NCBI RefSeq assembly: GCF_032393985.1
Contig: NZ_CP135918.1
Span: 1 to 64,000, forward strand
Length of the DNA stretch: 64,000 nucleotides
Source of the DNA: Fischerella sp. JS2
Lineage (GTDB): Bacteria; Cyanobacteriota; Cyanobacteriia; Cyanobacteriales; Nostocaceae
Direction of reading: 5' to 3'
Of the stretch, positions 15,617 to 53,837 are shown in pieces. A model generated the notes under the pieces. The model was not told where the DNA came from and ran no database searches. It worked only from the letters and a program-made list of their open reading frames with translations. The position numbers and the translations under genes are program-made. The number at the start of each line of letters is the position of its first letter. Position 1 is the first letter of the stretch.

Positions 15617-17662
15617 GTGGAGAAGGGGACGCTAGTTGAATTTAGACTTCAAGGCGATCGCCGCTTGGGTGTGATAGATCGCCCAGACGGCAAAACCCGT
15701 TGGTTCATAGTCGATGAACGGGGTCAATCTCACAGTCTCGCGCCTAGACAAATCACATATATAGTTACTGGACAAACTTATAAATCTTCACAAATTTCTA
15801 GTTTTTTAGAAGAAGTAAACCCTTACTTAGATCCATCAAGCTTAGAAGTAGCTTGGGAATTACTAGTAGAGGATGGGGAAGCAGTGACACCACAAGTAAT
15901 GGCAAGCTTACTGTTTTCGGAATCACAACCACCTCAGTGTTATGCTGCTTACTGGTTGCTATCAGAAGATAAAATTTATTTCAAGCAAAAGGGAGACTCT
16001 TACGAACCCCGCACAGCCGCCCAAGTAGCAGAACGCAAACACCAAATAGAAATAGAGGCACTTAAAGCAAAAGGACAACAAGAATTTTTGGCTCGTGTAG
16101 AGCAAGCACTCAAAGGTGAAGCAGTCGAGTGGCAAAGACATGACCGCCACCGTTTAGAAGCTTTAGAAAAATATGCAACACTGCTTGCCGACATTGTGCG
16201 TGTAGGGCTAAATTATGACTCTCTGGCTCGTGCCTATCCGCCGCCAGCGCCAGTCCTGGAAACGATGAACATGCTAGGACGTTCTGCAACCCCCCAAGGA
16301 ACCTTTCAATTATTGGTAGACTTGGGTTGGTGGAGTCCTCACGAAAACTTATTTCTGCGTCGTTCCTCAATTCCAGTTCAATTTCCTACAAAGGTACTAG
16401 AAGTGTCGCAACAGCGATTACAATCACCACTGCCTGATCCAGATGTTAACCGCCTGGATTTGACCTACCTCAAAGTGTACACGATTGATGATGAAAGTAC
16501 TACCGAGATAGACGATGGTTTGAGTTGGGAACAGCTTGCAGATGGGCGAGAAAGATTATGGGTGCATATCGCTGATCCAACACGATTTTTGCTCCCAGAA
16601 GATGAGTTAGACCTAGAAGCCAGAAAACGGGGTAGTACAGTTTATTTGCCAACAGGAATGGTTCCCATGTTTCCAGAAATATTGGCAACTGGACCCATGA
16701 GTTTGGTGCAAGGACAGGTTTGTTGCGCCCTCAGCTTTGGAATTATATTAGATGCGTCTGGTGCAGTAGAAGATTACAGCATTCATGCCAGTTTTATTAA
16801 ACCTACCTATCGCCTTACCTACGAAGACGTAGACGAAATGCTGGACTTGGACGTGCAAGCGGAACCAGAAATTGCCGCTATAGCCAGATGGGCAAACAAG
16901 CGCAAAGCTTGGCGATACGCCCAAGGAGCCATCAGCATCAATATGCCAGAGGCAATGATTAAAGTCAAAGAAGATGACATCAACATCTATGTTTTAGACG
17001 ACTCCCCCTCCAGGCAACTAGTAGCGGAGATGATGATACTTGCTGGTGAAGTTGCTGCCCGTTATGGTCAAACTCATCAAATTCCTCTGCCTTTTCGTGG
17101 TCAGCCCCAGCCAGAATTACCCCCCGAACAAGAATTACTCCAGCTACCAGCAGGTTTCGTTCGTGCCTGTGCCATGCGTCGCTGTATGCCTAAGAGTGAA
17201 ATGAGCATTACACCAGTACGCCATGCTGGTTTAGGTTTGGATACCTACACTCAGGCTACTTCTCCTATCCGCCGCTACAGTGACTTGCTTACCCACTTTC
17301 AGCTCAAAGCACATCTGCGGGGCGATGTTCCACCCTTTTCCGCCGAACAACTCAAAGAAGTGATGATGACCGTTAGTACCATCACCCAAGAAGTGACAAT
17401 GGTAGAACGGCAGACAAACCGATATTGGGCATTAGAGTACTTGCGCCGCTGCACGGATAAAGTTTGGCAGGCAACAGTATTAATGTGGTTGAGAGAAGAT
17501 AGTGGTTTAGCATTAATTCTTTTGGAAGATTTGGGTTTGCAGTTACCAATGTCTTTCCGGCGTGCTTTGAAGTTAGGTGAACAGGTTTTAGTGAAAGTCT
17601 TCCACGTCGATCCACAAAAAGACGTGATTCAATTTCAGGAAGTAATTTATCAAGAAGCGTGA
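15617..17662 (+). CDS. RNase II/RNase R family 3'-5' exoribonuclease
   Basis: A 681-residue exonuclease that degrades RNA hydrolytically from the 3' end. An N-terminal small beta-barrel region (EKGTLVEFRLQGDRRLGVID) is followed by the large RNB catalytic domain. The core TIDDESTTEIDDGLSW and LWVHIADPTRFLLPEDELD carry the metal-binding aspartates, and RCMPKSEMSITPVRHAGLGL with TQATSPIRRYSDLLTHFQLK is the conserved 3' part. A short S1-like end (GEQVLVKVFHVDPQKDVIQF) closes the protein. It is shorter than E. coli RNase R and fits the cyanobacterial VacB/Rnb-like type. The start is a GTG, and no ATG in frame fits better. It may help process structured RNA or rRNA, and being downstream of ribosomal genes is compatible. 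Confidence 0.92.
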   Translation: MEKGTLVEFRLQGDRRLGVIDRPDGKTRWFIVDERGQSHSLAPRQITYIVTGQTYKSSQISSFLEEVNPYLDPSSLEVAWELLVEDGEAVTPQVMASLLFSESQPPQCYAAYWLLSEDKIYFKQKGDSYEPRTAAQVAERKHQIEIEALKAKGQQEFLARVEQALKGEAVEWQRHDRHRLEALEKYATLLADIVRVGLNYDSLARAYPPPAPVLETMNMLGRSATPQGTFQLLVDLGWWSPHENLFLRRSSIPVQFPTKVLEVSQQRLQSPLPDPDVNRLDLTYLKVYTIDDESTTEIDDGLSWEQLADGRERLWVHIADPTRFLLPEDELDLEARKRGSTVYLPTGMVPMFPEILATGPMSLVQGQVCCALSFGIILDASGAVEDYSIHASFIKPTYRLTYEDVDEMLDLDVQAEPEIAAIARWANKRKAWRYAQGAISINMPEAMIKVKEDDINIYVLDDSPSRQLVAEMMILAGEVAARYGQTHQIPLPFRGQPQPELPPEQELLQLPAGFVRACAMRRCMPKSEMSITPVRHAGLGLDTYTQATSPIRRYSDLLTHFQLKAHLRGDVPPFSAEQLKEVMMTVSTITQEVTMVERQTNRYWALEYLRRCTDKVWQATVLMWLREDSGLALILLEDLGLQLPMSFRRALKLGEQVLVKVFHVDPQKDVIQFQEVIYQEA

Positions 17663-18190: not shown

Positions 18191-18250
18191 GAAAAAATCC
18201 CCTAGCAACCGACAGTCAACTAGGGGAGTTTGTTATCAGGGTGCATCTAC
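18191..18250 (-). ncRNA. nsiR1: NsiR1 copy A
   Basis: The predicted RNA starts near 18250, about 35 bases from the centre of the TCCGGA box at 18282-18287, and ends at a rho-independent terminator. The terminator stem is CCCCTAG (18199-18205) paired with CTAGGGG (18220-18226), followed on the minus strand by a T run. Length is about 60 nt. Both ends are inferred, not mapped. Confidence 0.85.
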
Positions 18251-18281
18251 CATTACTATGTTCTGAGATAAACCAGTATGC

Positions 18282-18287
18282 TCCGGA
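18282..18287 (-). promoter_or_regulatory. DIF+ -35 box of copy A
   Basis: TCCGGA, the -35 motif of heterocyst-specific DIF+ promoters such as that of NsiR1 (established knowledge). It is palindromic; direction is set by the terminator below. Confidence 0.8.
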
Positions 18288-18330
18288 TAATTTTGTGCAA
18301 ATTCTTGGCTACATGTTTGTTTTTGCACAT

Positions 18331-18390
18331 AAAAAAATCCCCTAGCAACCGACAGTCAACTAGGGGAGTTTGTTATCAGGGTGCATCTAC
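18331..18390 (-). ncRNA. nsiR1: NsiR1 copy B
   Basis: Identical to copy A in the leader and terminator, with stem CCCCTAG/CTAGGGG and an A7 run on the plus strand (T7 on the transcript strand). The TCCGGA box is at 18422-18427, 32 bases above the inferred start. It is exactly 140 bp from copy A. Confidence 0.87.
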
Positions 18391-18421
18391 CATTACTATG
18401 TTCTGAGATAAACCAGTATGC

Positions 18422-18427
18422 TCCGGA
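18422..18427 (-). promoter_or_regulatory. DIF+ -35 box of copy B
   Basis: TCCGGA at the same offset from the predicted RNA start as in copy A, with the flank CAGTATGC-TCCGGA-TAATTTTG conserved. Confidence 0.8.
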
Positions 18428-18470
18428 TAATTTTGTGCAAATTCTTGGCTACATGTTTGTTTTTGCACAT

Positions 18471-18530
18471 AAAAAAATCCCCTAGCAACCGACAGTCAAC
18501 TAGGGGAGTTTGTTATCAGGGTGCATCTAC
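18471..18530 (-). ncRNA. nsiR1: NsiR1 copy C
   Basis: Same leader and CCCCTAG/CTAGGGG terminator as copies A and B, 140 bp further on. The promoter flank differs by one base (CAGTATAC instead of CAGTATGC), a variant shared with copy D. Confidence 0.87.
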
Positions 18531-18561
18531 CATTACTATGTTCTGAGATAAACCAGTATAC

Positions 18562-18567
18562 TCCGGA
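18562..18567 (-). promoter_or_regulatory. DIF+ -35 box of copy C
   Basis: TCCGGA preceded on the plus strand by CAGTATAC, in the same position as in the other units. Confidence 0.8.
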
Positions 18568-18610
18568 TAATTTTGTGCAAATTCTTGGCTACATGTTTGT
18601 TTTTGCACAT

Positions 18611-18670
18611 AAAAAAATCCCCCGATAGCCGACAGCTAGCAAGGGGAGTTTGTTATCAGGGTGCATCTAC
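18611..18670 (-). ncRNA. nsiR1: NsiR1 copy D, second terminator class
   Basis: The leader is identical to copies A-C, but the terminator arm reads CCCCCGATAGC...GCTAGCAAGGGG. The outer CCCC/GGGG pairs are kept, and a new inner TAGC/GCTA stem replaces the CCCCTAG/CTAGGGG stem. The loop core CCGACA and the T7 run remain. The TCCGGA box is at 18702-18707. Confidence 0.87.
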
Positions 18671-18701
18671 CATTACTATGTTCTGAGATAAACCAGTATA
18701 C

Positions 18702-18707
18702 TCCGGA
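18702..18707 (-). promoter_or_regulatory. DIF+ -35 box of copy D
   Basis: TCCGGA with the CAGTATAC flank, 32 bases above the inferred RNA start of copy D. Confidence 0.8.
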
Positions 18708-18750
18708 TAATTTTGTGCAAATTCTTGGCTACATGTTTGTTTTTGCACAT

Positions 18751-18810
18751 AAAAAAATCCCCCGATAGCCGACAGCTAGCAAGGGGAGTTTGTTATCAGG
18801 GTGCATCTAC
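18751..18810 (-). ncRNA. nsiR1: NsiR1 copy E, second terminator class
   Basis: Identical to copy D over the RNA, including the CCCCCGATAGC/GCTAGCAAGGGG terminator, but with the CAGTATGC promoter flank of copies A and B. This is the last of the homogeneous 140-bp units; the flank then diverges after TCCGGATAATTTTGCG. Confidence 0.87.
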
Positions 18811-18841
18811 CATTACTATGTTCTGAGATAAACCAGTATGC

Positions 18842-18847
18842 TCCGGA
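18842..18847 (-). promoter_or_regulatory. DIF+ -35 box of copy E
   Basis: TCCGGA at the conserved offset from copy E; sequence upstream of it (on the transcript strand) no longer matches the other units. Confidence 0.8.
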
Positions 18848-18890
18848 TAATTTTGCGAAAATGGGATTAAAAGGTTATGAAAAACAACAA

Positions 18891-18948
18891 AAAATCCCTC
18901 AGTAGCCAATTACCAACAAGGGGAGTGAGTTATCAGATTCCATCTACC
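18891..18948 (-). ncRNA. Degenerate NsiR1 copy F, no DIF+ box
   Basis: Keeps AAAATCCC, a C-rich/GGGGAG hairpin pair, GTTATCAG and CATCTACC in the same order as the full copies, but the terminator loop differs and no TCCGGA is found 32 bases above the expected start. It may be silent. Confidence 0.6.
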
Positions 18949-19253
18949 AGCATCTCAATATATCTCGGGCAAGGGGTAAGGGGAATTTATGCGTTTCTCT
19001 ATGTCCTTTGACCCAATCCCAGTAAATTTTTCCTGATCAGCACTCTTAGGCAAGAGTATGCTCATCCGAACTGTATTGCCAGGCATCTACCAGTCTTTGT
19101 GTTTTAGAGCAAAACAGTTAGTATAGTTTGGATGCATTTATCAATGATTCTAGGGGGTATAAAGATATGGGACTAAGGCTAAGATCTTCCACTTTTTTAG
19201 TTAAACCCATACTCACCTACCCTGATTTTGTAGGAAACTGGGTGATCAAAATC

Positions 19254-19310
19254 AAAAACCCTAGTGCTTGATAGCCAACTAGGGAAGCCGAGTTACCAGG
19301 GTATATCTAC
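19254..19310 (-). ncRNA. Degenerate NsiR1 copy H, mutated DIF+ box
   Basis: Retains the terminator stem CCCTAG (19259-19264) / CTAGGG (19279-19284), then GTTACCAGGGTATATCTACC. At the position of the DIF+ box (19342-19347) the plus strand reads TCAGGA, one base off the consensus. Expression may be reduced. A leader-only remnant (GGCATCTACC, no hairpin, no box) lies between this and copy F near 19081. Confidence 0.65.
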
Positions 19311-19651
19311 CAATTCAAAATTCTGGTTGTCAATCTTGTCATCAGGAGAATTTATTTGACTTTTCACGCTGTGTAAAAACCTTATGAATGTCAAATAGTT
19401 AAAGAGAAACTTGTGATCTCTACTCTGATTGAGGCTGGAGATCATAAGCAGGGGTAAAAATAGCTGTAATCGTACTTACCCATAAAGACAAAAAATCAAG
19501 TCTTTAAGCAAGGAGTGCTGTTCAGTTGGGGGTATAAAGGTATAAGTGTTCAAATCCCTTACACCCTTACATCCCTGCCCCCTTCAAGATATTCCGTGAA
19601 AAGTAAGGATAAATTTTTGGTGCATTGGGGACGTTTTTCTGGTAAGCATAG

Positions 19652-19709
19652 AAAAACCCCCCAGCGTGTATTAGCCAAGCAGGGGAGTTAAAGATCAAGG
19701 TGCATCTAC
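19652..19709 (-). ncRNA. Divergent NsiR1 copy I with intact DIF+ box, nearest hetF
   Basis: Has AAAAACCCCCC...AGGGGAGTT terminator arms and the leader GGTGCATCTACC, with an exact TCCGGA at 19742-19747. It is the copy closest to hetF and would be transcribed away from it, antisense to a long hetF leader. Its loop and spacer are unlike copies A-E. Confidence 0.75.
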
Positions 19710-19741
19710 CAATAAAAATGTTCTAGGCACAGCCGATAAAA

Positions 19742-19747
19742 TCCGGA
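19742..19747 (-). promoter_or_regulatory. DIF+ -35 box of copy I
   Basis: Exact TCCGGA, about 150 bp upstream of the chosen hetF start. Because it is palindromic it might also act toward hetF, but no matching plus-strand start is evident. Confidence 0.7.
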
Positions 19748-19886
19748 TTAAAGTTGTAGAAGTTGCAAGAGCAGCAAAACAACTGCAATCAGAAACATCT
19801 CGGTGACAAGATGCATCTAAATGTATCAGAAACGAAACATCACTTGAAAATGAATTGCGTTTCAAATCGGCTCGTAGGAGGCAAAC

Positions 19887-19896: not shown

Positions 19897-22407
19897 GTGA
19901 CCCAGGAATTTCAAATTTCCGTAACCCCTGTAGGGCAAAACGACTACTTGGTGCGAACGGAAAGAGTCGCGCAGGGAGTTCCGTTGGCAGAAGAACTGGT
20001 GACTTGGCCTGTAGCTGATTGGTTGACAGCTGCTGGACATTTGATGAATGACCCATTGAAGTTAGTGTTACAGGGAGATGCGATCGCCAGAAACTCTGTC
20101 AACTTAGCAGCATTGGGTCGGGAGTTTTACGATAAATTGTTTAAAGGCACTCTCAGAGATAGTTGGATGGCTGCCCAAGGTATCGCCCAAAATCGCCAAG
20201 GTGTATTGCGCCTACGTTTGGGGTTAAAAGATCATCGGTTAGCGCGTTTGCCTTGGGAAGTGATGCACGCAGGTGATCGTCCCATAGCCACAGGCCCATA
20301 TATTGCTTTTTCTCGCTTCCACTCAGGAATAAATGGGGCATCTCGCCTACCATCAATGCCTACACCGCCGGAAGAAGGTGGTATCAGAGTATTGATGGTA
20401 ATTGCTTCTCCCAATGATCGAACCCGTTTGAATTTACTTAAACAAGAAGCTGAAGAACTACAAGCAGAACTACATCGCCAATCACCACGCTTCTCGGAAA
20501 CAGGGGCTTATCTGCCAGGTATCGAACTAACTTTGTTAGAACAGCCAGGTAGAGAAGAATTAACACAAGCCCTGGAACAAAGACGTTATCACATCCTGCA
20601 CTACTCCGGTCACAGTAACTTAGGCCCTAACGGCGGCGAAATTTATCTTGTCAGTGGTAGAACAGGCCTCACCGAGACACTAAGTGGAGACGACTTAGCA
20701 GGCTTACTCGTCAATAACAATATTCAAATGGCTGTGTTTAACTCCTGCTTGGGCGCATACGCAGCTACTTCTGACCCCACACAAGAAACAGGCGAACGTA
20801 ATCTTACCGAAAGCTTAGTTAAACGGGGTATTAGGAGTGTTTTAGCAATGTCAGAACGCATTCCTGATGAAGTCGCGTTGACATTGACACAGTTATTTTA
20901 CCGTAACCTTGCTCAAGGATATCCTGTAGATTTGTGTGTGAGCCGAGTACGACAGGGGTTAATCTCTGCCTATGGATCGCATCAGATGTACTGGGCTTTG
21001 CCTATTTTGTATCTTGATAAAGATTTTAATGGTTATCTCGGACCGGAAATTGATGTACCCCAAACGCCAAAATTGCTCAACGAGTATGATCCGGCCTTAG
21101 GGGGAACACCAACACTCTACCCAGCTACAGCAGATAATACCGATCTGTCTTTGCCGATGGATAATATGGTTGCTTCTGGTCTGACACAAGAGTCTTCTGA
21201 GTTAGACTGGCTAGGCGAAGAAACCTGGGGTGATTTGGTAGATGAAATCGAGTATGACGATCCAACCTATGCCCAGGATTCATCTGTAGTCGCAGGTATA
21301 TTTGGTGAACTAGGCAATTCCACAGATGCTAACGAGCAAACTTCCATGAAAGCCGAACTTATAGGGCAGGATAGAGAAGATAGTATTGATGACGCTGACG
21401 ATAGTGAAAATCTCGCTGCATTGTGGGGAGAATTTGCACCACAAATAGCGCCAAATAGACAAATAGCACCAGCAAGTGATGAAGTAGCTGTTGATGATAG
21501 CTTAGGTGGAGATTGGCAAAGTACTTTTGCTTCTTCTTACATTACCCCATCTGAGAAAGCTGCCTATAGACGACGCGCTCGAGGTCAGTTGTTGTCTATA
21601 GTTGGATTTGTGGGAATTAGTGCGATCGCAGTATTTTTTGGCATAAATTGGTGGCAGCAACGAAACTCAACCCTATCTGACATACCAGCAATTTCTACCG
21701 ATTCTAAATCTAGCCAAAATCTGTCACCGACTAGTATAAAAACAGAAGCAACCGGAATTGTCACCGCCTATGCTACCGAGAAACTGAGCAATGGTGACTT
21801 ACAAAATGGACTATTAGCTGTAGAGGCACTTCTGGATCGTAATGCTCTTGATAATGCCAAAACAGCCCTTGATCTTGTTCCTACCAATCAGTTAGATAAT
21901 CCATTTGTCAACTTTTTAAAAGGACGCTTAGCATGGCAGTTTGTCCAAATCAAAGACACTAGATATAGCGTTGATGATGCCCGCCGTTTTTGGGAAAATG
22001 CTGTAAAAACAGAACCCAATTCGCTTTTATATTCTAATGCTTTAGGTTTTGCTTACTACGCAGAAGGCAATCTCAATCGTGCCAACGACTCTTGGTTTAA
22101 AGCATTGGACACTGCTGTCAAACACAATACATCAGCCAGTAACATTGTAGCCAAACCAAAACAAGAATCTCAGGATACTTTAACAGCCTATGCAGGCTTA
22201 GCCATTGGATTATACAAATCTGCACGTAATCAGCCAGATTCTAAACGAGAGCAATATCTTAATGAAGCAGTAAAACTGCGGCAAATGGTAGTCAAAGATG
22301 ATCCTATCAGTTTTCAAAAAAATCAATTAGCTAACAATTGGATGTGGTCAGAAGAAGCAATTAAAGATTGGGAATCTCTCTTACAAATCAAGATTGGATC
22401 TCAATAA
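19897..22407 (+). CDS. hetF: HetF, CHAT-domain heterocyst differentiation protease
   Basis: HetF is a caspase-like (CHAT) protein needed for heterocyst differentiation and normal cell division in Nostoc. From the GTG at 19897 the product is about 836 residues, beginning TQEFQISVTPVGQNDYLVRT. The CHAT domain (about 95-380) includes RRYHILHYSGHSN with catalytic His239 and MAVFNSCLGAYAA with catalytic Cys284. An acidic, low-complexity linker (about 390-560) follows, then one membrane helix (LLSIVGFVGISAIAVFFGIN, about 570-590) and a helical, TPR-like C-terminal region. The open frame reaches back to a TTG at 19855, but the AGGAG site favours the GTG. The adjoining NsiR1 array is the strongest support for hetF rather than a generic CHAT protein; in Nostoc NsiR1 is reported to act on hetF through its 5' leader. 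Confidence 0.92.
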   Translation: MTQEFQISVTPVGQNDYLVRTERVAQGVPLAEELVTWPVADWLTAAGHLMNDPLKLVLQGDAIARNSVNLAALGREFYDKLFKGTLRDSWMAAQGIAQNRQGVLRLRLGLKDHRLARLPWEVMHAGDRPIATGPYIAFSRFHSGINGASRLPSMPTPPEEGGIRVLMVIASPNDRTRLNLLKQEAEELQAELHRQSPRFSETGAYLPGIELTLLEQPGREELTQALEQRRYHILHYSGHSNLGPNGGEIYLVSGRTGLTETLSGDDLAGLLVNNNIQMAVFNSCLGAYAATSDPTQETGERNLTESLVKRGIRSVLAMSERIPDEVALTLTQLFYRNLAQGYPVDLCVSRVRQGLISAYGSHQMYWALPILYLDKDFNGYLGPEIDVPQTPKLLNEYDPALGGTPTLYPATADNTDLSLPMDNMVASGLTQESSELDWLGEETWGDLVDEIEYDDPTYAQDSSVVAGIFGELGNSTDANEQTSMKAELIGQDREDSIDDADDSENLAALWGEFAPQIAPNRQIAPASDEVAVDDSLGGDWQSTFASSYITPSEKAAYRRRARGQLLSIVGFVGISAIAVFFGINWWQQRNSTLSDIPAISTDSKSSQNLSPTSIKTEATGIVTAYATEKLSNGDLQNGLLAVEALLDRNALDNAKTALDLVPTNQLDNPFVNFLKGRLAWQFVQIKDTRYSVDDARRFWENAVKTEPNSLLYSNALGFAYYAEGNLNRANDSWFKALDTAVKHNTSASNIVAKPKQESQDTLTAYAGLAIGLYKSARNQPDSKREQYLNEAVKLRQMVVKDDPISFQKNQLANNWMWSEEAIKDWESLLQIKIGSQ

Positions 22408-33348: not shown

Positions 33349-35043
33349 TTAGACCAATCCCAACTGCTGCTTTAAAGCTTCTGGCATATTTACTGTTTTA
33401 TCTAAACCACGTACATCTTCCCACTCTAAATTTTCATTCCAAGTCATTTTTTCTAGGTTGGCGTCGCTAAGATCTGCGCCGCCTAAAATCGCATAACTCA
33501 GGTTTGTATAACTGAGGTCTGCGCCACTGAGAATTGCACCACTCAAATTACTACCACTCAGGTTAGCGCTGCTGAGGTTGGCGTAACTAAGGTCAGTACC
33601 AAAGAGAATAGCATCGCTGATGTCTGCACCACTGAGATCAGCTTCGTTGAGAAGCACGCCACTAAGATCAGCTTCGTTGAGAATTACATCAGTGAGGTCT
33701 ACACCACCTAGATCTGCACCCAAAAGAATTGCACTTCTGAGGTTAGCACCATTGAGTTTAGCACCGTTTAGTTTGGCGTAGCTGAGATCGGCGGCGATGA
33801 GAATAGCATTTCTCAAGTTTGTGCTAAAGAGAATAGTGTCGCTGAGGTTACTGCCTTTAAGATCAGCATGATTGAGGTCTGTACCGCTGAGGTCGGCGCG
33901 GCAAAGGTCGGCATAGCTGAGGTTAGCACCGTTGAGGTTCGCATCACTAAGATTAGCACCGAAGAGAATCGCGTGACTAAGATAGCTACTGCTGAGTTTT
34001 GCATCCCTAAGATTGCCACTAGTCAAGTTAGCATGGCTAAGATCAGCACCACTGAGATTAGCACTGCTGAGGTCGGCGTGACTGAGGTCGGCACGGTAAA
34101 GATCCGCACCAGCCAGGTTAGCACCACTGAGGTTGGTACTGCTAAGATCAGTACACCTGAGATTAGCACCAGCTAAGTTAGCACCACTGAGGTTAGCATC
34201 ACCAAGGTTAGCAGTGCTAAGATTAGCACCACTGAAGTTAACACCAGTCAGGTTTGCATCCCCAAGATAAGCACTAGTGAGGTTAGCAGCGCTGAAGTTA
34301 ACACCAGTTAGGTTTGCGTCCCCAAGATAAGCGCCACTAAAGTTATTGCTTTGGAGGAATTCCCCAACAACACTACAAAAATTACCAATTTCGATCGCAT
34401 CGCTATAATTTATGACACGTAGGAGTTGGGATGTAAAAAAATTATCTTGATGTCGTTCACCAGAAGGATAGAAAATTATTTGGGCTTTAAGGTCATCTCG
34501 CTGTTGGGCATAGCGATGCAACTCCAATAGTAAAATCAACACATTTAGTCCTGTATTGATGTCTACCTGTCGTAGTCCGATCGCAATATTTTGCGCCTGC
34601 AACTGCAACATCTTTTTTTGGGGTAAATTTTCACTGGGTGCTGCATCTATAAATACCCCCTCACACCAACGCCGATAAAAATCTTCTAAACGCTGAAATA
34701 ACAGCACAGGTCGAAAATCATTACTAGCAACCAACCTCTGCATTACTGCTTGCACAACTTCAATTGTTAATGCAGTATTTCCTAATAAATCATAAATGTT
34801 CTCATCTAATTGGCGATCGCTGATTTTAATATTCAATAAATCGTTGTTTTTTGTCCATTCTTCCAAGCTTTGCTGCAATTGTTCAGGTGATAGCAATTCT
34901 CTTAAATTATTTTGATGATTATTAATTTTTACTAAAGGGAAAACCCCTTGTAGTTCAAGACCCGTTAGATTTGATATCTCTTGTTCTTCTGTTCTTCTAA
35001 TATAAGTTATCAAACGCTTCCAGACTTTATATAATAGTGCCAT
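33349..35043 (-). CDS. Pentapeptide repeat protein with N-terminal helical domain
   Basis: The 564-residue protein has an N-terminal non-repeat domain of about 235 residues (beginning MALLYKVWKRLITYIRRTEE) followed by about 60 pentapeptides of the A(D/N)LxX type, for example ANLSGANLAGADL. These should fold into a right-handed quadrilateral beta helix. The role of such proteins is usually unknown; some mimic DNA or scaffold complexes. The C-terminal cap reads LEKMTWNENLEWEDVRGLDK. The gene has a strong 15-bp DNA periodicity, which also creates long frames on the opposite strand that are not genes. A 30-bp palindrome lies 87 bp upstream. Confidence 0.9.
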   Translation of the reverse strand: MALLYKVWKRLITYIRRTEEQEISNLTGLELQGVFPLVKINNHQNNLRELLSPEQLQQSLEEWTKNNDLLNIKISDRQLDENIYDLLGNTALTIEVVQAVMQRLVASNDFRPVLLFQRLEDFYRRWCEGVFIDAAPSENLPQKKMLQLQAQNIAIGLRQVDINTGLNVLILLLELHRYAQQRDDLKAQIIFYPSGERHQDNFFTSQLLRVINYSDAIEIGNFCSVVGEFLQSNNFSGAYLGDANLTGVNFSAANLTSAYLGDANLTGVNFSGANLSTANLGDANLSGANLAGANLRCTDLSSTNLSGANLAGADLYRADLSHADLSSANLSGADLSHANLTSGNLRDAKLSSSYLSHAILFGANLSDANLNGANLSYADLCRADLSGTDLNHADLKGSNLSDTILFSTNLRNAILIAADLSYAKLNGAKLNGANLRSAILLGADLGGVDLTDVILNEADLSGVLLNEADLSGADISDAILFGTDLSYANLSSANLSGSNLSGAILSGADLSYTNLSYAILGGADLSDANLEKMTWNENLEWEDVRGLDKTVNMPEALKQQLGLV

Positions 35044-51977: not shown

Positions 51978-53837
51978 CTATCCAAAAGAAGTTGCTACAA
52001 CCCGAAAACCACATATCCGTAATCCCCCATCTGCTTCGTTCCAGCTGCGACTGGCGCTACGGCAAAGTTCTGGACTAAAACTCCAAGAACCACCCCGCAA
52101 CACTCGACGGTGCATATCTCCACCGACTTCCCATACTGTTCCATCTGTAGGAGCGCCATCATAATTTTTATGCCAAGGATCAGCACACCATTCCCAGACT
52201 AGCCCATGCATATCGTATAGGCCAAAGGCATTTGCCACACCAAAACTACCCACTGGTGTTGTTTCTTTGCGATATTTACTTTTGATTTCTGAAGATTCGC
52301 CGCTACTGCAATTAGCTAACTCAGAGGTAATTGTTTCACCAAAATGGAAAGGTGTTGTTGTACCTGCACGACAAGCATATTCCCATTCGGCTTCGCTGGG
52401 TAAGCGATAATGTCGCCTTGTTTTTTTCCACAAGCGCGCACAAAATTCTACTGCTTCGTGCCATGATACATTTTCTACTGGTCGATTAGCACCCTTGAAT
52501 TTTGATGGGTAAGGATTTAAAGATTGTTTGACTTTAGGTAAAGCTGCAACTGCTTTCCACTGTGCTTGTGTGACAGGATATTTCCCTATAAAAAAGGGTT
52601 CGACGGTAACTTGATGTTGCGGACGTTCATCAGCATCTCCTTCTTCTTCAGTTGCACCCATTAAGAAATAACCGCCTGGGATAGCTACCATTTCCATTGT
52701 TACCCCATTACCCAAATCTTCTGTATAGTAGTTGGCGGTGCGATAATCACGCTTAATTTCCCTGCCTGTAGAGTCTACCGTTACTGTATCAAATTCAAAA
52801 ACTTCTAAAGTAGGAAATCCTGGTGTTACTGATTGTGGTATTGTTGTCAATAATTGGGTTTGGTGTGGCGTGAAAGTTGGTGATGTTGTAGATACAACAG
52901 GTAATGAGAAAGATGATTTTTGGGGATTTAAATCTTTGAGAACTTCTGCTGCTGATTGATATCTTTCTGAGGCTAAATGTTTCAGTAATTTATCTAAAAT
53001 ATTTCCTAAATCTTCGCTGACAGTAATCCCTTTTTCTTCGAGAATTTGCCGCCATAACCATTTACAACTCATAGGATCAAAGAGGCGGTCATGAATTTGA
53101 CCATAAGCATCTCGTATAGGTAAACATCCAGTGATTAGGCGCGCACAAGTCACTCCTAAAGCATACAAATCACTGGCATGACAAGCAAAGCCTGCCATTT
53201 GTTCACTAGGTGCATAACCCAGTGTATAAAGAACTGTAGCTTGTCTAGCTAAGCTTGTTTGTGTAACTTGTTTAGCGCCACCAAAATCAATTAATACTAG
53301 TTTGCCATCGCTTTGACGGCGAATAATATTTTCTGGCTTGATATCACGATGAATGACGTTACGTGAATGGATAAATTCTAAAACTGGTAATAAGTCAGCT
53401 AAAAGTTCTCGGATTTTTTCTTCGGTAAAAGATTGTTGAATAACTTCTGTAAAAAGAGTCTGTCCTTGAATAAATTCTTGTACTAAATACAAGCTTGTAC
53501 CTTGTTCAAAGTAAGCCAATAATCTTGGAATTTGTAGATGATTTTCTCCTAGTTCATATAGTCGGAAAGCTTCTTCTTTGAATAATTCTGCTGCTTTAGT
53601 GCGTTCAGATGTACCATGAACTTGTGGAAAAAATTGCTTGATAACGCAGGGAGCATTGAGTCTATCAATGTCTTCTGCTGCATAAGTTCTGCTAAACCCG
53701 CCTTCGCCTAATAATCTCGATACGTGGTAGCGGTTACGTAATAATTCACCAAAGTTGCTTTGTCCGCAACTAATGCAAAACCTATTTTCATCAGCATTGA
53801 AGGGATTTGAGCAATTGGGATTTTGGCAGATTTGCAT
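51978..53837 (-). CDS. Serine/threonine protein kinase fused to formylglycine-generating-enzyme-like domain
   Basis: A 619-residue cytoplasmic fusion. The N-terminal zinc-ribbon Cys set (CQNPNC, CISCGQ) is followed by a Hanks-type kinase: GEGGFSRTYAAED (Gly loop), VIHRDIKPENIIR (catalytic Asp) and LIDFGGAKQ (DFG). A linker of about 100 residues leads to a SUMF1/FGE-type domain (about 365-617): IPGGYFLMGATEEEGDADER P, PVTQAQWKAV, RLPSEAEWEYACRAGTT and VLRGGSWSFSPELCRSASRS. Such kinase-FGE fusions are frequent in filamentous cyanobacteria; the FGE part more often acts as a binding module than a sulfatase activator. Substrates are unknown. Confidence 0.94.
   Translation of the reverse strand: MQICQNPNCSNPFNADENRFCISCGQSNFGELLRNRYHVSRLLGEGGFSRTYAAEDIDRLNAPCVIKQFFPQVHGTSERTKAAELFKEEAFRLYELGENHLQIPRLLAYFEQGTSLYLVQEFIQGQTLFTEVIQQSFTEEKIRELLADLLPVLEFIHSRNVIHRDIKPENIIRRQSDGKLVLIDFGGAKQVTQTSLARQATVLYTLGYAPSEQMAGFACHASDLYALGVTCARLITGCLPIRDAYGQIHDRLFDPMSCKWLWRQILEEKGITVSEDLGNILDKLLKHLASERYQSAAEVLKDLNPQKSSFSLPVVSTTSPTFTPHQTQLLTTIPQSVTPGFPTLEVFEFDTVTVDSTGREIKRDYRTANYYTEDLGNGVTMEMVAIPGGYFLMGATEEEGDADERPQHQVTVEPFFIGKYPVTQAQWKAVAALPKVKQSLNPYPSKFKGANRPVENVSWHEAVEFCARLWKKTRRHYRLPSEAEWEYACRAGTTTPFHFGETITSELANCSSGESSEIKSKYRKETTPVGSFGVANAFGLYDMHGLVWEWCADPWHKNYDGAPTDGTVWEVGGDMHRRVLRGGSWSFSPELCRSASRSWNEADGGLRICGFRVVATSFG

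Follow-up and report, generated by a model that had tools for sequence, protein, structure and literature searches.

Heterocysts are specialised nitrogen-fixing cells. The closest described counterpart of the locus reported here is the array of NsiR1 small RNA genes (Rfam RF02399) of Nostoc sp. PCC 7120, in which tandem genes for RNAs of ~60 nt are described upstream of hetF and on the opposite strand, each with one DIF1 promoter, and in which near-identical central copies are accompanied by divergent edge copies, including the hetF-proximal one (Brenes-Alvarez et al. 2022, PMC9045159; Xing et al. 2021, PMC8406250). A short-repeat array is likewise reported upstream of hetF in Nodularia spumigena CCY9414, with 12 repeats (PMC3610870), and Limnospira indica PCC 8005, described as having hetR and no heterocysts, carries RNA162, a 57-nt NsiR1-like RNA with measured expression (PMC8400943). 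Within the limits of the literature searched, RNA162 was the sole NsiR1-like RNA that we met from a non-heterocystous species (PMC8400943). Here we describe the NsiR1 genes in a window of 64,000 nt of contig NZ_CP135918.1 from Fischerella sp. JS2, whose genome is one 7.02-Mb contig, together with related copies elsewhere in this and other genomes.

JS2 is presumably a heterocyst former of the Fischerella type. Judged from sequence, its hetF array is a further example of the known system, in agreement with the initial annotation of this stretch, which had called it not new as a system, and with the published hetF-linked arrays (PMC9045159, PMC8406250). The JS2 array has six promoter-bearing copies, five of them in tandem, versus the 12 given for PCC 7120, and unlike the array published for that strain it has two hairpin versions, three decayed copies, one HetP-family match in the genome and a Fischerella-like host. 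JS2 also has extra copies between lgt and cobM and near aroB, a difference to be read with the comparison to PCC 7120 covering the hetF array only. What is new, as indicated by genome comparison, is that NsiR1 is found away from hetF as well, and in cyanobacteria other than heterocyst formers: it has an orthologue at lgt-cobM that ranges across families, and its presence and promoter box are coupled to HetR. The array at hetF was real as annotated, and the picture, drawn from the window alone, was incomplete, since the family extends beyond the array and beyond heterocyst formers.

The NsiR1 array upstream of hetF

Matches to NsiR1 were called with the Rfam covariance model RF02399, using its gathering score of 39 as cut-off. 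NsiR1 was the sole Rfam family matched in the window, with six minus-strand matches at or above this score (51.8-64.6 bits), and these are all six of the intact copies. The tandem copies span 18191-19711 on the minus strand, opposite to and upstream of hetF, in a 2.2-kb gap with an RNase II-type gene on one side and hetF on the other (Table 1). The observations of the initial annotation were confirmed here, including the identity of the RNA, its strand, its place upstream of hetF and the 140-bp units. A total of nine TGGTAGAT starts were found on the minus strand of the hetF upstream region; six belong to copies with their own DIF1 box (TCCGGA), and three (18949, 19092, 19312), without TCCGGA, to decayed copies. 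The total of nine compares to about eight copies in the initial annotation.

Twelve occurrences of TCCGGA were observed in the window, six of them within the array region. The box precedes GGTAGATG (GGTAG) by 30 nt in five copies and by 31 nt in the hetF-proximal copy, so that the earlier claim of six intact DIF+ promoters was right as to the boxes, and its box-to-start spacing of about 35 bp agrees when taken from the box centre. The pattern GCATCTACCN{24,34}TCCGG gave nine matches in the 7.02-Mb genome, of which the array accounts for six and other places for three; the reversed pattern had none. It matched 217 of 217 genomes of the family, and the reversed control gave one match in each of six (read by eye).

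Units 1-3 of the array are identical to one another at 138-139 of 140 positions; unit 4 matches them at 129-131 of 140, and unit 5 matches the other units at 107-116 of 140, with the differences lying mainly in the last third of the unit. One hairpin version is common to units 1-3 and another to units 4-5. At a G/A position two bases away from the box, units 1, 2 and 5 agree with one another and differ from units 3 and 4. Because these two features group the units differently, we infer that sequence was exchanged between units after duplication. The copies have a predicted hairpin followed by a T-run, and the core copies carry a conserved 5' segment, UGGUAGAUGCACCCUG. The hetF-proximal copy has a 5' segment of its own, UGGUAGAUGCACCUUGAUCUUU, and lies 186-247 nt upstream of the hetF GTG at 19897; by position, it is the counterpart of NsiR1.1 of PCC 7120. 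If the hetF start site is similar to that reported at -256 in PCC 7120 (PMC8406250), this copy would be contained entirely in the hetF leader, on the opposite strand.

Table 1. NsiR1 copies, DIF1 boxes and flanking genes. Positions are those of the window, except in the last three rows, which give positions in the JS2 genome.
Feature	Position	Strand	Evidence or setting
RNase II-type gene, upstream of array	15617-17662	+	Pfam RNB and RNase II domains
Tandem array, period 140 bp, 4.8 copies	18192-18862		Tandem Repeats Finder, 97% matches, score 1188
NsiR1 copy, hairpin type A, most distant from hetF	18191-18252	-	RF02399 61.5 bits
DIF1 box TCCGGA of copy 18191-18252	18282-18287	-	sequence
NsiR1 copy, hairpin type A	18331-18392	-	RF02399 64.6 bits
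DIF1 box TCCGGA of copy 18331-18392	18422-18427	-	sequence
NsiR1 copy, hairpin type A	18471-18532	-	RF02399 64.6 bits
DIF1 box TCCGGA of copy 18471-18532	18562-18567	-	sequence
NsiR1 copy, hairpin type B	18611-18672	-	RF02399 51.8 bits
DIF1 box TCCGGA of copy 18611-18672	18702-18707	-	sequence
NsiR1 copy, hairpin type B	18751-18812	-	RF02399 51.8 bits
DIF1 box TCCGGA of copy 18751-18812	18842-18847	-	sequence
Decayed copy: terminator-like hairpin retained, 5' segment mutated, no TCCGGA	18881-18949	-	model R1 22.6 bits, E 0.03; sequence
Decayed copy: just the start TGGTAGATGC recognisable, no TCCGGA	19043-19092, lower end approximate	-	sequence
Decayed copy: no TCCGGA	19250-19312	-	Rfam 34.4 bits, under cut-off 39
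hetF-proximal NsiR1 copy, within presumed hetF leader	19650-19711	-	RF02399 52.6 bits
DIF1 box TCCGGA of hetF-proximal copy	19742-19747	-	sequence
hetF, 836 aa from GTG (start codon inferred)	19897-22407	+	NCBIfam NF045509 CellDiv_HetF 1421 bits, cut-off 1200; Pfam CHAT
NsiR1 copy between lgt and cobM	670,336-670,386		Rfam 51.5 bits, above cut-off
Two diverged NsiR1-like units in tandem, with CCGG boxes	about 1,580,360-1,580,610 (units 1580358-1580575, L010 4359-4576)		between ExoD-like gene and aroB
Three-unit NsiR1-like array, ~220 bp spacing	about 4,174,500-4,175,000 (units 4174531-4174986, L204)		downstream of gatB-like gene

A conserved copy between lgt and cobM

The Rfam NsiR1 search of the whole genome gave nine matches at E <= 0.001, two of them outside the window. 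Three promoter-bearing copies lie outside the hetF array, one between lgt and cobM (NCBIfam TIGR00544 and TIGR01465 matches) and two near aroB. In what follows, genomes, fetched stretches or loci, families and genera are labelled G, L, f and g where they need to be told apart. The strict promoter pattern for the lgt-cobM copy was found in 135 of the 217 family genomes, with one match each, covering 35 of 56 genera. We also searched 388 genomes of the order, 71 from the family of the window and 317 from other families, with a 25-mer of the lgt-cobM RNA at up to three mismatches. All 71 family genomes had one match each, and the control gave none across the 388; among the family matches listed, 58 of 59 were exact and one had a single mismatch. 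Within 30 fetched heterocystous loci the copy was flanked by lgt and cobM in 27 and by cobM alone in three short stretches. The extrapolated distance from RNA start to cobM start was 90-104 nt in 27 of the 30 and 182-212 nt in three; in the other sets it varied between 13 and 907 nt.

Beyond the family, the 25-mer matched in 87 of the 317 genomes. In 20 other-family stretches chosen for variety (L050-L069), both genes were present in 11, one in eight and neither in one. A scan of named genomes yielded 38 loci, including Trichodesmium (4), Symploca (3), Planktothrix (2), Lyngbya aestuarii, Argonema, strain ESFC-1 and one Spirulinaceae genome, and we take most of these carriers to form no heterocysts. 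Both lgt and cobM were found at 26 of the 38, one gene at nine and neither at three (ESFC-1, L098 and the Spirulinaceae locus). Some loci hold multiplied copies, with five in L057 and four in L062 between lgt and cobM, and four downstream of lgt in L110; in L058 one copy lies near cobM and two lie ~11 kb off at a contig end. Ten stretches chosen outside the family of the window gave 38 NsiR1 matches above the Rfam cut-off, so these copies are covered by Rfam's own definition of NsiR1. A total of 111 of the 117 unique lgt-cobM-type RNAs fold to a stem of at least five pairs before the T-run, with varying stem sequences (pair counts are from single-sequence folds, with no covariation test).

These comparisons identify the lgt-cobM copy as an orthologue and not a stray duplicate. 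As published, RNA162 of Limnospira indica fits this wider range as an NsiR1-like RNA (PMC8400943). NsiR1 and cobM together gave no match in the full-text literature, in a search that missed some key NsiR1 papers, which possibly report such copies. A megablast search of a plasmid collection also gave no match.

Association with HetR

HetR (Pfam PF03574) was found in 236 of the 388 order genomes. The 25-mer matched in 148 of these 236, compared to 10 of the 152 without HetR (read by hand). Model R1, which is mostly sequence-based because the hairpin was misaligned in the MAFFT/RNAalifold consensus, with 6 pairs only, was applied to hand-picked genomes and matched 25 of 26 HetR-positive ones in which the 25-mer had found nothing, versus 1 of 20 HetR-negative ones. 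By family, the copy was present in 17 of 18 with HetR and 2 of 15 without (p 2e-6, hand-read; f31 was covered with the strict pattern only, in a 61%-complete genome). The Fisher values for this association treat relatives as independent and ignore phylogeny.

The box was examined in 72 copies found with box-free patterns (31 in L050-L069, 41 in L090-L127). Exact TCCGGA lay 29-31 nt before GGTAG in 66 of them, and the other six had one mismatch; at random positions the figure was 38 of 11,600. Eleven HetR-negative carriers were inspected, six at least 90% complete and five less complete. None of the six had exact TCCGGA in the inspected copies: three g95 genomes had TGCGGA, two f32 genomes had ACCGGA, CCCGGT or TCCCGA, and G224 had TCCCGA or TCCTGA in four copies. 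The less complete carriers comprise three further g95 genomes with TGCGGA, and G454 and G527 with the exact box. Counting genomes with the exact box in at least one copy, 37 of 43 inspected HetR-positive genomes (hand count) compare to 2 of 11 HetR-negative ones (Fisher p 4e-5), or to 0 of the 6 more complete ones (Fisher p 7e-5, relatives again treated as independent).

Several related arrangements were observed in other lineages. In g95 (L129-L133, L054), where no HetR was found, all six genomes have a conserved TGCGGA where TCCGGA would stand; after the loss of HetR, the box may have been re-tuned to another regulator. Four stretches of f2, g57 (L179, L180, L181, L187) hold arrays of 10, 9, 7 and 4 NsiR1-like units spaced mostly at 130-140 bp, and many units start with TAGTAGATG and have TCCTGA or TCCCGA for TCCGGA; no hetF, lgt or cobM was found on these fetched stretches. 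The L182 stretch, with weak R1 matches in G236, had no copy with a TCCGGA-like box. Four genomes of f9 and f21 (L184, L186, L188, L189) have a gene with HetF as its main NCBIfam match, at 752-942 bits and under the equivalog cut-off of 1200, and carry divergently oriented NsiR1-like copies upstream of this gene. Because these copies stand beside a HetF match, the NsiR1-hetF neighbourhood may itself be older than heterocysts; these four genomes are taken as non-heterocystous solely as lying outside the family that, in GTDB, holds the heterocyst formers.

Further NsiR1-like units in the JS2 genome

The two units near aroB scored 34.2 and 28.3 bits, under the Rfam cut-off of 39. The names ExoD-like and aroB are presumed from the protein sequences. 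Promoters of similar look were also seen in G001 (L076, L077). A further array lies downstream of a gene that we take to be gatB-like. The NsiR1 5' segment recurs in its units together with a hairpin resembling a terminator. TATAYT-like stretches stand upstream, TCCGG is absent within 300 nt, and two of the units score 30.4 and 27.0 bits with Rfam. This array is a possible HetR-independent relative of NsiR1.

Candidate targets

Core NsiR1 of PCC 7120 is reported to bind the start region of the mRNA of alr3234, one of four HetP-family genes of that strain (PMC9045159). We found one HetP-family match each in JS2 and five close relatives (G069, G070, G171, G172, G174). Elsewhere there were four in G072, G195 and G211 and one in G001, G034 and G155, and several other heterocyst formers had three or four. 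The sole JS2 match lies directly downstream of a 413-aa gene, an arrangement that we presume could fit hetC-hetP. The commitment network of the JS2 clade may be simpler on this count. The 14-nt complement of the 5' segment occurs at 52 genome sites at up to two mismatches, compared to 19 for the reversed control. RNAduplex predictions against the hetF start region were discarded, as they gave long unspecific pairings of -31 to -34 kcal/mol for all six variants. Conservation of the 5' segment argues for pairing with further targets.

Interpretation of the array and its relatives

We are confident, short of certainty, that the window holds six separately promoted, putatively HetR/HetZ-switched NsiR1 genes that were expanded locally from an older family with an orthologue at lgt-cobM. 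Five tandem units and one hetF-proximal unit would each be transcribed away from hetF, each with a DIF1 box, an RNA of ~60 nt, a conserved 5' segment and a terminator hairpin. By the mechanism of PCC 7120, HetR would switch the units on via HetZ in differentiating cells. Having several copies would increase the amount of an RNA that acts in trans by pairing with the start regions of mRNAs. The hetF-proximal copy would have a second role, as an antisense RNA to the hetF leader. The array would be a local expansion of a gene whose single-copy orthologue lies at lgt-cobM, also in non-heterocystous relatives with HetR. Since relatives of this RNA occupy this conserved second locus in non-heterocystous cyanobacteria, NsiR1 probably predates heterocysts. 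We lean, with some reserve, towards a history in which NsiR1 was an ancestral HetR/HetZ output RNA at lgt-cobM in HetR-bearing cyanobacteria with or without heterocysts, its TCCGGA box tending to disappear where HetR does, and in which copying to hetF and amplification came later.

Several observations weigh against this account. The separate alr3234-type HetP paralogue seems to be absent from the JS2 clade, in which case the known trans target would be missing in JS2; the initial annotation's reading of the locus as the same system as in PCC 7120 was supported in part, for the array, boxes and hetF, and may not hold for this target. At up to one mismatch, the 14-mer complement had two sites besides the NsiR1-like loci, one of them in a long open frame, which is about the number expected by chance by our own estimate, and so no trans target is proposed. 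In PCC 7120, removal of nsiR1.1 or replacement of its -10 box is reported to have barely altered a hetF-gfp reporter (PMC8406250), which weakens the cis-antisense part. The coupling to HetR also has exceptions. G245 has HetR and no R1 match, and six genomes with HetR (G448, G430, G493, G227, G271, G238) have a one-mismatch box in the copy seen. G454 and G527 (89% and 81% complete) have no HetR match and keep TCCGGA, and the HetR-less genomes G428, G442 and G446, which were counted as altered, are no more complete (88, 74 and 65%). G224 has a hetF homologue, two HetP-family matches and additional copies beyond those inspected, and the count of genomes with at least one exact box favours those with many copies.

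Among the alternatives, silencing in cis would have the hetF-proximal and lgt-cobM units act on the leader of the downstream gene (hetF or cobM) and leave the rest of the array dispensable. Each of the two conserved copies does sit a short way upstream of a gene and is oriented away from that gene, cobM distances fall in a narrow range in 27 of the 30 heterocystous loci, and NsiR1.1 of PCC 7120 is described as antisense to the hetF leader and as repressing hetF translation (PMC9045159). The wide range of cobM distances in the other sets is harder to fit, as are the 5' segment and hairpin shared by the aroB pair, which adjoins no gene start, and the slight effect of nsiR1.1 promoter loss on the published hetF reporter (PMC8406250); we regard this explanation as unlikely.

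A strain-specific copy-number variant of the hetF array, with functionless stray duplicates elsewhere, would agree with the published array layout and with the low scores of two of the three dispersed copies, those at aroB. Stray duplicates would not be expected to occur singly in all 71 sampled family genomes, nearly always exact among the matches listed, or to retain box and neighbours in other families, and we hold this to be quite improbable. That the repeated TCCGGA serves as a DNA decoy titrating the DIF1 activator, with the RNAs as by-products, would account for the conservation of box and spacing together with the RNA and for the multiplication of boxes in arrays. Nearly all unique RNAs nevertheless keep a stem despite differing stem sequences, and the 5' segment is retained in the array downstream of the gatB-like gene, which has no TCCGG nearby. 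A decoy is accordingly the explanation to which we give very little credence.

Other genes in the window

A pentapeptide-repeat protein gene at 33352-35043 (minus strand) contains tandem repeats of 15, 30 and 60 bp. A gene at 51981-53837 (minus strand) encodes a protein kinase domain fused to a formylglycine-generating-enzyme (FGE-sulfatase) domain.

Implications

A parallel is offered by patX, described as a HetR companion that likewise predates heterocysts and has a predicted DIF1 promoter in non-heterocystous Leptolyngbya too (PMC7761841, PMC11298460). As described there, patX is a protein gene that regulates HetR and differs in this from NsiR1, a non-coding output. The 2024 Leptolyngbya paper says of the roles of hetR and patX in species lacking heterocysts that they 'remain a mystery' (PMC11298460). 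The lgt-cobM copy of NsiR1 provides a candidate output of the HetR circuit: this small RNA carries the same promoter box, keeps to one conserved locus and tracks HetR across families. If this is true, the role of HetR in non-heterocystous cyanobacteria would include switching on NsiR1. The family would also bear on how developmental RNAs are recruited, from a single conserved copy to tandem amplification at hetF, with separate multiplication at lgt and/or cobM elsewhere.

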